Assembly (NCBI RefSeq): GCF_004526345.1
Contig: NZ_CP038213.1
Location: forward strand, 558,001 to 622,000
Source of the DNA: Ornithinimicrobium flavum
GTDB taxonomy: Bacteria > Actinomycetota > Actinomycetes > Actinomycetales > Dermatophilaceae
Length of the DNA stretch: 64,000 nt
Direction: 5' to 3'
Position numbers and translations under genes: made by a program. Below are positions 17,025 to 47,166 of the stretch, in pieces. A model generated the notes under the pieces. That model was not told where the DNA came from, ran no database searches, and saw only the letters and a program-made list of their open reading frames with translations. How positions within the stretch are numbered: the stretch's first letter is position 1; the number at the start of each line of letters is the position of its first letter.

Positions 17025-18071
17025 GTGAGAGCGATCTGGAAGGGTGCCGTCTCGTTCGGGCTGGTCAATGTGCCCGTGCGGCTCTACTCCGCCACCGAGA
17101 ACCACGACCTGAGCTTCCACCAGGTCCGGCGTTCGGACGGCAGCCGCATCCGCTACAAGCGGGTCGCGCAGGCTGACGGCGAGGAGGTCGAGTACAAGGA
17201 CATCGCCAAGGCCTACCAGACCGAGGACGGCAAGACGGTCATCCTCACCGACGAGGACCTGGCGAGCCTGCCCAGCCGCAGCAGCAAGGAGATCACCGTC
17301 GAGAAGTTCGTCCCGATCGACCAGATCGACCCGATCCTCTACGACAAGGCCTACTACATCGAGCCCGACGCGATGGGCGCCAAGGCGTACGGCCTGCTGC
17401 GGGAGGCCCTGCGGGAGTCCGAGCGGGTCGCGGTGGTCACGGTGTCGGTCCGGACCCGGATGACCATGGCCGTCCTGCGCGTCCTCGGTGACGCGATCGT
17501 GCTGCAGACGCTGCTCTGGCCCGACGAGGTGCGCGACGCCGGGCGGCTCGACCACCTCGACGAGGTCAGCGAGCCGAAGCAGGCGGAGGTGGGCATGGCC
17601 CGGATGCTTGTGGAGTCGATGGCCGGCGACTTCGAGCCCGAGGGGCACGTCGACGACTACAAGGAGGCCGTCGAGGCGCTGGTCGCGAGCAAGATCGAGG
17701 GCGGCGACGTCACCGAGAGCCCGGACGCCGTCGACGACGACGCCGACTCCGGCGAGGTGGTCGACCTGCTGGCCGCCCTGCAGCGCTCGGTCGAGCGGGC
17801 CAAGCAGGGCCGCGGCGGCGGCACCGCGGAGGAGGCCGACGGCCGGTCGGACGACTCCGACGACTCCGACGATGGCAGCGAGGACGAGGCCGCCGCCAGG
17901 AAGACCACGGCCACGAAGACCACCGCCAGGAAGACCACGGCCACGAAGGCCGCCGCCAAGAAGACCACGACCAAGAGGACCACCGCCAAGAAGACGGCTG
18001 CCAATGACACGGCCAAGCGCACCGGGACCGGCAGCACCACCCGGAGGTCGGCCCCCAAAAAGGCGGGCTGA
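17025..18071 (+). CDS. ku: Non-homologous end-joining protein Ku
   Basis: Homodimeric ring protein that caps double-strand breaks and recruits LigD. The conserved core (MRAIWKGAVSFGLVNVPVRL, IRYKRVAQADGEEVEYKDI, AYYIEPDAMGAKAYGLL) covers roughly residues 1-255. An acidic linker (SDDSDDSDDGSEDE) follows. Then comes a Lys/Thr/Ala-rich tail from about residue 290 to the end, built of KTTA-type repeats like a histone H1 tail. At DNA level the tail contains near-perfect direct repeats of about 30 bases from 17893 on. Long basic Ku tails are known in actinobacteria and aid DNA binding. The GTG start gives the conserved family N-terminus. Confidence 0.95.
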   Translation: MRAIWKGAVSFGLVNVPVRLYSATENHDLSFHQVRRSDGSRIRYKRVAQADGEEVEYKDIAKAYQTEDGKTVILTDEDLASLPSRSSKEITVEKFVPIDQIDPILYDKAYYIEPDAMGAKAYGLLREALRESERVAVVTVSVRTRMTMAVLRVLGDAIVLQTLLWPDEVRDAGRLDHLDEVSEPKQAEVGMARMLVESMAGDFEPEGHVDDYKEAVEALVASKIEGGDVTESPDAVDDDADSGEVVDLLAALQRSVERAKQGRGGGTAEEADGRSDDSDDSDDGSEDEAAARKTTATKTTARKTTATKAAAKKTTTKRTTAKKTAANDTAKRTGTGSTTRRSAPKKAG

Positions 18072-44356: not shown

Positions 44357-45366
<1,010 letters not shown>

Positions 45367-45378
45367 CCCCCCCACCCC

Positions 45379-45538
45379 ACCAGCCGCCTCGCGTGGTTGC
45401 TCCATACCCCACCGGCCGCCTCGCGTGGTTGCCCTCGACCGCACCGGCCGCGTCGCGTGGTTGCCCTCGACCGCACCGGCCGCGTCGCGTGGTTGCCGTT
45501 GACCCCACCGGCCGCGTCTATTGGTTGACATGAGTCGG
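45379..45538 (+). repeat. Left array: five tandem 32-bp units
   Basis: Units begin at 45379, 45411, 45443, 45475 and 45507, exactly 32 bp apart, each opening ACCGGCCGCGTCGCGTGGTT (or one or two changes). About 22 bases (through GGTTGCC) are conserved and the last 10 vary between CTCGACCGC, GTTGACCCC and TCCATACCCC. Unit 5 is diverged (TATTGGTTGACATG). The core CCGCG-T-CGCGTGG is itself nearly palindromic. The array starts 12 bases after hemB. There are no unique spacers, so it is not CRISPR. The 45539-45683 gap up to the right array holds no gene I can support; it contains a short CCAGG...CCTGG inverted repeat. Confidence 0.9.
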
Positions 45539-45683
45539 CGGGTCTGACCGGCTGACGCGACCGGACCAGGTCGACGTCCTGGCCGCTCGCCCGGTCAAGG
45601 TGGCTGAGGTGCCTGAGGGGGGCCCGTCGAGCAAGCACGCGATGGATCCGGCCACCACCCTGGGCGTCCGGTCGACCCCCCAA

Positions 45684-45811
45684 CAACCATTGGACGCGGC
45701 CCGTGGGGTATGGAGCAACCACGCGGGGCGGTCGGTGGGGTGTGGGGCAACCATGCGAGGCGGTCGGTGGGGTGTGGGGCAACCATGCGGGGCGGCCGGT
45801 GGGATTACGTA
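45684..45811 (-). repeat. Right array: four 32-bp units in inverted orientation
   Basis: Units begin at 45684, 45716, 45748 and 45780, again exactly 32 bp apart, each reading CAACCAYGCGRGGCGGYCGG, the reverse complement of the left-array core. The unit nearest the centre (CAACCATTGGACGCGGCCCG) mirrors the diverged unit 5 of the left array. The whole is therefore a large imperfect inverted repeat with about 145 bases between the arms. The last unit runs into the hemL -10 element. Confidence 0.9.
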
Positions 45812-45822
45812 GGCTGGCGCTC

Positions 45823-47166
45823 ATGACCCCCGACCCCGGCCAGACCAGCCAGACCAGCCCGCCGTACCCGGCGGGCGCACCGGCCTCCGAGCAGCTGATC
45901 GAGCGGGCACGCCGGGTCATCCCCGGTGGGGTGAACTCCCCGGTCCGCGCCTTCCGGTCCGTCGGCGGCACCCCCCGCTTCATGGAGCGCGCGCAGGGGC
46001 CCTGGATGTGGGACGCGGACGGGCGGCGCTACGTCGACCTGGTGTGCTCGTGGGGCCCGATGATCCTCGGCCACGCCTCCCCGCGGGTCCTGGCCGCGGT
46101 CACCGACGCGGCGGCCCAGGGGTTCTCCTTCGGCACGCCGACCGCCCGCGAGGTGGCCCTGGCCGAGGAGATCGTGCGCCGGGTGGAGCCGGTCGAGCAG
46201 GTGCGGCTGGTCAGCTCGGGCACCGAGGCCACGATGAGCGCGCTGCGCCTGGCCCGCGGCTTCACCGGCCGGTCGGTCGTCGTCAAGTTCGCGGGGTGCT
46301 ACCACGGGCACGTGGACGCCCTGCTCGCGCAGGCCGGCTCGGGGGTGGCGACCTTCGCCCTGCCGGACAGCTCGGGGGTGCCCCGCAGCTCGGCGGCCGA
46401 GACGATCGTGCTCCCCTACAACGACGTCCCGGCCCTGGAGGCCGCTTTCGCCGAGCGGGGCGCCGAGATCGCGGCCGTCATCACCGAGGCGGCGGCGGGC
46501 AACATGGGGGTGGTCCCCCCGGAGCCCGGGTTCAGCGACGCGCTGCGCAGGGTGACCGCGCAGCACGGCGCGCTGCTCATCAGCGACGAGGTGATGACCG
46601 GTTTCCGCTGCTCCGAGGCCGGCTGGTTCGGGCTGGAGGGGCGGCCCGAGGGCGGGGCGCCCGACCTGTTCACCTTCGGCAAGGTGATGGGCGGCGGCTT
46701 CCCGACCGCCGCCTTCGGCGGACGCGCCGACGTGATGGCGATGCTCGCACCGGAGGGGCCGGTCTACCAGGCGGGCACGCTGTCCGGCAACCCGGTGGCC
46801 TCCGCCGCCGGGCTCGCCACGCTGCAGGCGTGCACGCCCGAGGTCTACGCCCGGCTGGACGAGGTCAGCGAGGCCCTGGCCGGCGCCGTGACCGACGCCT
46901 TCACGCGGCACGGCATACCCCACCGCATCCAGTGGGCGGGGTCGATGTTCTCGGTCTTCTTCCGCGAGCACGCGGTCCGGGACTACGCCGACGCCCAGGA
47001 CCAGGACCGCGAGCGCTTCGCCCGGTTCTTCCACGCGATGCTGCGGCGCGGCGTGCACCTTCCCCCGAGCTGCTTCGAGTCGTGGTTCGTCTCCGCCGCG
47101 CACGACGACGAGGCGGTCGAGGTGGCCGTGCGGGCGATCGAGGAGAGCGCGGCCGAGGTGGCCTGA
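45823..47166 (+). CDS. hemL: Glutamate-1-semialdehyde 2,1-aminomutase
   Basis: PLP enzyme converting glutamate semialdehyde to 5-aminolevulinate. The 447 residues contain [70 protein letters not shown] and the PLP Lys in [13 protein letters not shown], then [15 protein letters not shown]. The ATG follows TAGGCT (45810-45815) by 7 bases, so the mRNA is probably leaderless. The -35 region falls inside the last 32-bp repeat unit. It completes the aminolevulinate branch begun by hemA. Confidence 0.96.

Follow-up and report, generated by a model that had tools for sequence, protein, structure and literature searches.

A dispersed family of 32-bp repeat arrays in Ornithinimicrobium and a predicted AbiEi/Vsr-type nuclease gene as its probable partner

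In a 64,000-nt stretch of the Ornithinimicrobium flavum genome (contig NZ_CP038213.1, positions 558,001 to 622,000; hereafter the window), the gap between hemB and hemL holds two arrays of 32-bp repeats that face each other, and the question is what kind of element this is and whether a protein goes with it. We find that it belongs to a dispersed array family, which is probably linked to a nuclease whose gene keeps a fixed place; arrays and gene together look like an undescribed repeat-plus-nuclease system, which resembles repetitive extragenic palindromic (REP) elements but is unrelated to them.

The Repeat Element Between hemB and hemL

The element and its neighbors are laid out as follows (window coordinates):
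45374..45533, forward strand: forward array, five units of 32 bp, with a core such as CACCGGCCGCGTCGCGTGGTTG (Tandem Repeats Finder, unit model)
45534..45677, no strand: centre separating the two arrays, without a called gene (gene calling)
45678..45805, reverse strand: reverse array, four 32-bp units directed towards the forward array (Tandem Repeats Finder, unit model)
44422..45366, forward strand: hemB (ALAD), upstream neighbor, with its 3′ end towards the forward array
45823..47166, forward strand: hemL (aminotransferase class III), downstream neighbor

The original prediction, made from the sequence alone, of five units facing four at every 32 bp is borne out: start-to-start distances under the unit model are exactly 32 bp throughout, and Tandem Repeats Finder (TRF) reports period 32 at 45374-45518 (4.5 copies, score 213) and at 45696-45803 (3.4 copies, score 167). 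These had been called exact repeats, which is true of their spacing but not of their letters, since 64-nt segments of the forward array are 78-84% alike and 56-nt segments of the reverse array 80-84%; the units are thus similar, not identical. The predicted 145-base centre is right (144 bases with the units framed as 32-mers). Each unit consists of a core of about 22 bp and then a spacer of about 10 bp, and the two arms are inverted with respect to each other (140 nt, 77% complementary). The innermost units, predicted to be the most diverged and to mirror each other, indeed score lowest in both arrays (27.3 and 20.8, vs. 32.5-41.8 for the other seven) and have an ATTGG/AATGG variant in common. 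The first forward unit lies 7 bp past the hemB stop codon (which ends at 45366), and 17 bp separate the reverse array from the hemL start codon (45823); the hemB neighbor was identified as ALAD, and the downstream class-III aminotransferase is consistent with hemL.

A Dispersed Family of Arrays

The genome containing the window (G000; genomes and loci carry our own labels, G and L) is one contig of 3.71 Mb, in which a BLAST search with the element gave at least 77 matches (40 of 125 candidates scored). We examined 31 loci of this genome, namely the window, 20 stretches around BLAST matches, and ten 20-kb stretches chosen blind to arrays; one further BLAST match, near 3.408 Mb, lies outside them. 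A weight matrix located 158 units in the 31 loci, at no fewer than 22 sites, forming 36 arrays of two or more units beside two lone units, and 115 of the 120 unit spacings are 32 bp. By the same matrix the ten array-blind stretches hold no array, and shuffles of the first ten of the 31 loci gave one model match, vs. 158 in all 31 unshuffled. A dispersed intergenic element, one of the options raised at the outset, is supported. The claim of one large inverted repeat, not two arrays, fits hemB-hemL, but nine of the 22 sites are a single arm, which means that the family does not require an inverted repeat. Among 21 pairs of neighboring arrays within 1300 bp of each other (G000 and G010), 18 are facing, two have the same direction, and one (L036 3200-3396, G000:1377699-1377895) points apart. 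At another site, L029 2699-3082 (G000:258198-258581), a forward array abuts the end of a gene that matches the ribonuclease family PF00545.

Cores are 0.80 identical between loci and 0.89 within arrays in G000, with ACCG, CGC, and TGGTTG as invariant blocks, and spacers are 0.46 identical between loci and 0.66 within arrays. Since the spacers recur within arrays and the cores vary, the arrays do not have the unique spacers and identical repeats of CRISPR. A polarity like that set by a CRISPR leader was rejected (in 33 arrays of at least four units, the most diverged unit is first in 9, last in 8, inner in 6, and tied in 10), as was gene conversion between the arms of one locus (G000 spacer similarity 7.0, vs. 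6.5 for permuted partners, p 0.07).

Beyond G000, a two-unit pattern with at most two mismatches is present in 12 of the 31 genomes of the genus, with 2 to 211 matches each, and the backwards control patterns had no match in any genome listed. When at most one mismatch is allowed, G000 alone of 149 genomes from the order has a match; the other 148, none of them from this genus, have none. A 12-base single-core pattern barely exceeded its control (33 matches vs. 26) and was not useful. In stretches chosen blind to arrays, TRF detected 31-32-bp arrays (at least 2.3 copies) with differing cores in G010, G019, G005, G009, and G014, and 22-23-bp arrays in G002, G041, G019, and G005, with the qualification that two G019 stretches (C18:40001-60000 and C7:300001-320000) include previously known array places. 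Neither kind was detected in the chosen stretches of the genus members G000, G013, G038, and G012, or in those of G024, G034, and G025, from other families. The period persists while the array sequence changes. Arrays average 2.3 units in G021, 4.3 in G000, and 3.9 in G010, with the G000 and G021 stretches mostly picked by BLAST matches. At three loci (L121, L183, and L186, in G005 and G014) the 32-bp arrays are of other kinds, and several of them have a core that contains GGTTTCG. In the open-licence PMC literature we found no paper that describes these repeats or that connects AbiEi-type proteins with dispersed arrays.

A Gene Bracketed by the Arrays

The window-type repeat also forms convergent arrays on the two sides of a gene for a 340-aa protein (G000:C1:3061552-3062571; L043/L223), which is outside the window, 2.46 Mb further along the contig. 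Its N-terminal part has the AbiEi winged-helix and antitoxin fold, as judged by fold and profile, and 22 of 25 aligned homologues match AbiEi_4 (PF13338) at E ≤ 0.1. The closest solved folds to its C-terminal domain are the Vsr endonuclease and I-Bth0305I, indicating a Vsr-like endonuclease fold; here VIA-align served as a second look at the Foldseek rows, and families absent from those rows are not excluded. The presumed active-site residues D44, E55, D57, and K61 (A2 numbering) are invariant in 19 of 19 sequences, and the second D of this site is conserved at 90% or more in the 25-row alignment. A PDB sequence search with the protein's profile gave no match, and NCBIfam no meaningful one.

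A search of the genus at E ≤ 1e-30 gave 27 matches to this subfamily in 19 of the 31 genomes. Three that are cut by contig ends were excluded (L240, L241, and L249, the last with a repeat upstream); of the 24 complete members, 19 have arrays within 600 bp on both sides, five on one side, and none lacks them, and in 18 of the 19 two-sided cases the flanking arrays are inverted rather than direct. By comparison, of 321 random long genes three have arrays on both sides, 57 on one, and 261 on neither, and the corresponding numbers for 20 other AbiEi_4 genes in five genus genomes are 3, 3, and 14, where the repeat periods range from 17 to 37 or equal 94, and none is 22 or 32. One of these control genes, L250 2082-2486 (G000 near 3.4448 Mb), is a short frame with an AbiEi_4 domain that is possibly a decayed member, its 22-bp array lying about 740 bp off and so beyond the 600-bp limit.

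The 340-aa protein gene and its orthologues (orthogroup A) occur in eight genomes, each with at least 27 matches to the two-unit pattern. TRF finds arrays on both sides in seven of the eight, and in G040 on one side, with a single unit opposite; the flanks of the gene align on both sides in all eight genomes, and since they are syntenic the gene itself is not moving. The three neighbors scanned in G000 (one upstream, two downstream) are an ABC ATPase, DUF4032, and the solute-binding SBP_bac_3, so that no AbiEii nucleotidyltransferase toxin is among them. We rejected the reading that arrays carry the gene they enclose as cargo: six centre genes were scanned in G000, and apart from the AbiEi-like gene they are ordinary ones (cobalamin adenosyltransferase, SSB, tRNA-editing, SDR, and thiamine-binding). 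A second set of AbiEi-Vsr-like genes, L242-L248 (in G011, G039, G040, G044, G017, G002, and G000), has flanking 21-22-bp arrays of its own, on both sides in six of seven and on one side in L243.

Array sequence was also compared with the gene, using matrices from which the gene's own locus was left out. The G000 matrix scores the units flanking the G000 gene at 28.4, vs. 9.6-18.8 for those of the seven other orthologues, and with the G010 matrix the corresponding values are 33.4 for its own and −3.4 to 28.8 for the others. In these two genomes, array sequence covaries with the gene. The sole G041 array matches the array of its own gene (35, vs. at most 15). With a cruder alignment score, in which seven of the nine window units were compared to the flanks of 24 genes, the eight orthogroup-A genes rank first.

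In other genera, a score gap among the fetched loci parts 14 genes (>160 bits) from the next ones (<145 bits). The high scorers have arrays on both sides in seven cases, on one side in three, and on neither in four; 14 lower scorers in one, five, and eight (Fisher p 0.03 for arrays on both sides). Two of the seven two-sided high scorers have unequal repeat lengths on the two sides. As L276 (G194) and L275 (G254) show, flanking repeats here can reach a length of 83 bp, or consist of 13.8 near-identical copies of 33 bp. We regard the link between gene and arrays as well supported within the genus and moderately supported outside it, and it is very likely that the two form one system.

Array Sites in Relatives

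Array sites come and go between relatives. At each of two sites that hold arrays in G000 (L033), the alignment with relatives runs as far as the stop codon and continues at, or close to, the following gene, with no array between. The first is array-free in G016 and G041 (left out were G010, G017, and G021, where the gene after the array is on the other strand, and G002, where the stretch is longer); the second is array-free in G016, G017, G041, G021, and G002. The hemB-hemL gap of nine relatives with the genes in line (loci with a minus-strand hemL being left out) contains no unit and no tandem repeat of period 17 or more. Eight of the nine (L050, L051, L052, L054, L056, L058, L066, and L073) have a MarR-family-like gene there, an assignment checked with Pfam on L051 alone, and G000 has the arrays and no such gene. 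None of the matches listed is a separate copy of the centre of the window element; the idea that this centre is a remnant of the relatives' MarR gene was dropped, the matches being short and weak only.

Proposed Explanation

Our best explanation, to which we give a probability of about 0.5, is that the arrays are binding sites of the AbiEi/Vsr-type protein and spread through its nuclease, and that the window element is a gene-less copy. The protein would bind the cores of about 22 bp, the arrays being tandem sites; periods of 32 bp and 22-23 bp, equal to about three and two helical turns, would bring several proteins into line on one face of the DNA. The predicted nuclease half would nick or break DNA in or beside the arrays, and repair with other arrays as template would lengthen the arrays, make them more alike, and now and then spread them, rarely seeding new ones. 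Selection would then leave arrays lying between genes and away from promoters, and the window element would be a dispersed copy tolerated because of its location between genes; the gene would remain at one syntenic place, as RAYT genes (REP-associated tyrosine transposases) do for REPs. The early suggestion of a protein-binding array has inferential support, and the predicted DNA-binding nuclease whose gene the arrays bracket probably recognises them. We infer binding, cleavage, and repair-driven spread; for maintenance and spread by the nuclease in particular, we put the odds at just about even or a shade under.

Several results weigh against this explanation. The cruder score puts the gene of G000 itself only fourth (22.9, vs. 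25.7 for G044); the four G002 arrays split between the type of their own gene and the G041 type, and in G019 and G009 the arrays show no separation by genome. Four of the 23 genomes without an orthogroup-A gene have the window-type pattern (45 matches in G021, 15 in G016, 10 in G006, and 2 in G023), the arrays of G021 being of its relatives' type, and G005 and G014 have 32-bp arrays without a subfamily gene at E ≤ 1e-30. The eight genomes are related, so that P (Fisher) values overstate independence. Two filled sites, compared by eye with empty relatives, show no target-site duplication, and since spacers differ among loci, recent copy-and-paste is not visible. In other genera, having at least one array does not differ significantly between high and lower scorers (10 of 14 vs. 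6 of 14, p 0.25), no array was detected at four of the 14 members, and just four of the seven two-sided cases favor inversion, which with the unequal repeat lengths makes the result outside the genus weaker.

Alternative Explanations

The main rival keeps the binding and drops the nuclease-driven spread: a domesticated AbiEi-like regulator or nucleoid protein, whose arrays are sites useful to the host (polar roadblock terminators, or insulators at the 3′ ends of genes), the nuclease fold being irrelevant to spread. This is unlikely in our view, although the position of the arrays speaks for it. In G000, G010, and G021 combined, 68 arrays lie outside predicted genes (called with a custom codon-usage script, of which some calls will be wrong), 26 of them between tail-to-tail genes and four between head-to-head genes, vs. 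47 and 54 of 272 background gaps, which include the array-bearing ones. Of the 68 arrays, 48 have the 3′ end of a gene on their 5′ side, and in 48 the 5′ side is the one closer to a gene. A period of 32 or 22-23 bp, about three or two helical turns, suits a regulator as well, as does a terminator scan that found none in the hemB-hemL gap and a single match inside hemL. However, orientation bias in tandem-gene gaps is weak (22 sense, 16 antisense), the orthologous gaps compared are array-free in relatives, the presumed active-site residues are invariant, and the same positions could arise from avoidance of promoters and genes alone. Seven further arrays lie within predicted genes (3 of 36 in G000, 4 of 25 in G010, and 0 of 14 in G021), and these hold all four of the 33-bp spacings of G000 and seven of the ten of G010, 33 being a multiple of 3.

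A defence or addiction system, with the nuclease as effector and the arrays titrating it or marking self DNA, is improbable. The nuclease fold of the C-terminal domain is in keeping with it, and AbiEi models from a defence library hit its N-terminal half, at a best E of 1.8e-17 over the four homologues scanned; but the gene locus is fixed and syntenic, no partner toxin is among the three G000 neighbors scanned, and the member P0002 is unmatched at E ≤ 1e-5 in 50,697 phage and 72,556 plasmid records.

Slightly less probable still is an RNA-level role, in which the inverted arms form a long hairpin that acts as a bidirectional terminator or stabilises mRNA. The whole hemB-hemL gap folds at −338.6 kcal/mol (z −13.6 vs. 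shuffles), and most neighboring pairs (18 of 21) are convergent; but the forward arm, the sole arm tested, folds no better than shuffles on its own (z −0.9), and Rfam at E ≤ 1 yields just one chance-level match, inside the gene preceding hemB. The bidirectional terminator of the original prediction can be reconciled with paired arms, which can fold, but leaves unexplained the single arms (nine of 22 G000 sites) and the arrays within genes (3 of 36 in G000).

Ordinary minisatellites grown by slippage, coincidentally linked to the AbiEi-like gene, are the least probable. The higher spacer identity within arrays (0.66, vs. 0.46 between loci) is what local duplication gives, but cores are far better conserved between loci than spacers (0.80 vs. 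0.46), units are almost never single (two, vs. 36 arrays, in G000), and one protein subfamily is repeatedly bracketed, by arrays of different sequence.

Comparison With Known Systems

Similar to REP elements and REPINs with their RAYT (TnpA-REP) genes, the Ornithinimicrobium repeats are short, many, dispersed, intergenic, and often in inverted pairs, and a single non-mobile gene is flanked by its repeats, in eight of eight orthogroup-A genes. A RAYT is likewise single-copy with repeats in its flanking DNA (PMC3116915). Unlike REPs, the units are cores of about 22 bp in head-to-tail 32-bp arrays; the forward window array does not surpass shuffles in hairpin folding (z −0.9), as a REP-type palindromic unit would; and no Y1 transposase (Y1_Tnp, PF01797; the RAYT type) was found in any of the 31 genus genomes, with the control detected in five of 14 named genomes.

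The AbiEi-like N-terminal part recalls AbiE type IV toxin-antitoxin systems, whose AbiEi, like Rv2827c, binds 23-bp repeats with positive and negative cooperativity (PMC7319586). The additional Vsr-like nuclease domain, the many remote arrays, and the lack of a toxin among the three scanned neighbors set the partner gene apart from them. The EDxHD homing endonuclease I-Bth0305I forms a dimer on its target, which spans nearly 60 bp (PMC3943268), about the length of two 32-bp units. The partner differs from I-Bth0305I and Vsr in being a free-standing gene with a fixed place between arrays and an AbiEi-like DNA-binding half. Miniature inverted-repeat transposable elements (MITEs) and foldback elements have inverted arms around a short centre, and the arms of foldback elements are built of tandem repeats. 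The inverted arms of the window element enclose a short centre in the same way, but array arms are also found alone, no sign of a target-site duplication was observed, and the centre is without another copy of its own among the matches listed.

We tentatively suggest, at somewhat less than even odds, a new two-part actinobacterial element, in which a fixed AbiEi-Vsr-type nuclease gene, set between inverted tandem arrays, maintains matching arrays, spreads them over the chromosome by break-and-repair, and coevolves with them, the REP/RAYT arrangement having been invented independently. An orphan repeat family thereby gains a candidate protein partner, and proteins annotated just as "AbiEi antitoxin domain" are tied to DNA sites they may act on. 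If the suggestion is true, bacteria have evolved dispersed repeats with a captive nuclease on more than one occasion, using unrelated proteins; species and paralogues have repeats of their own; the system was assembled from homing-endonuclease-like and antitoxin-like parts; and the spread of short repeats without a transposase becomes a directly testable question.

Elsewhere in the window, a 15/30-bp tandem repeat at 17893-17995, with a unit unlike those of the arrays, has a period that is a multiple of 3 and is perhaps coding.
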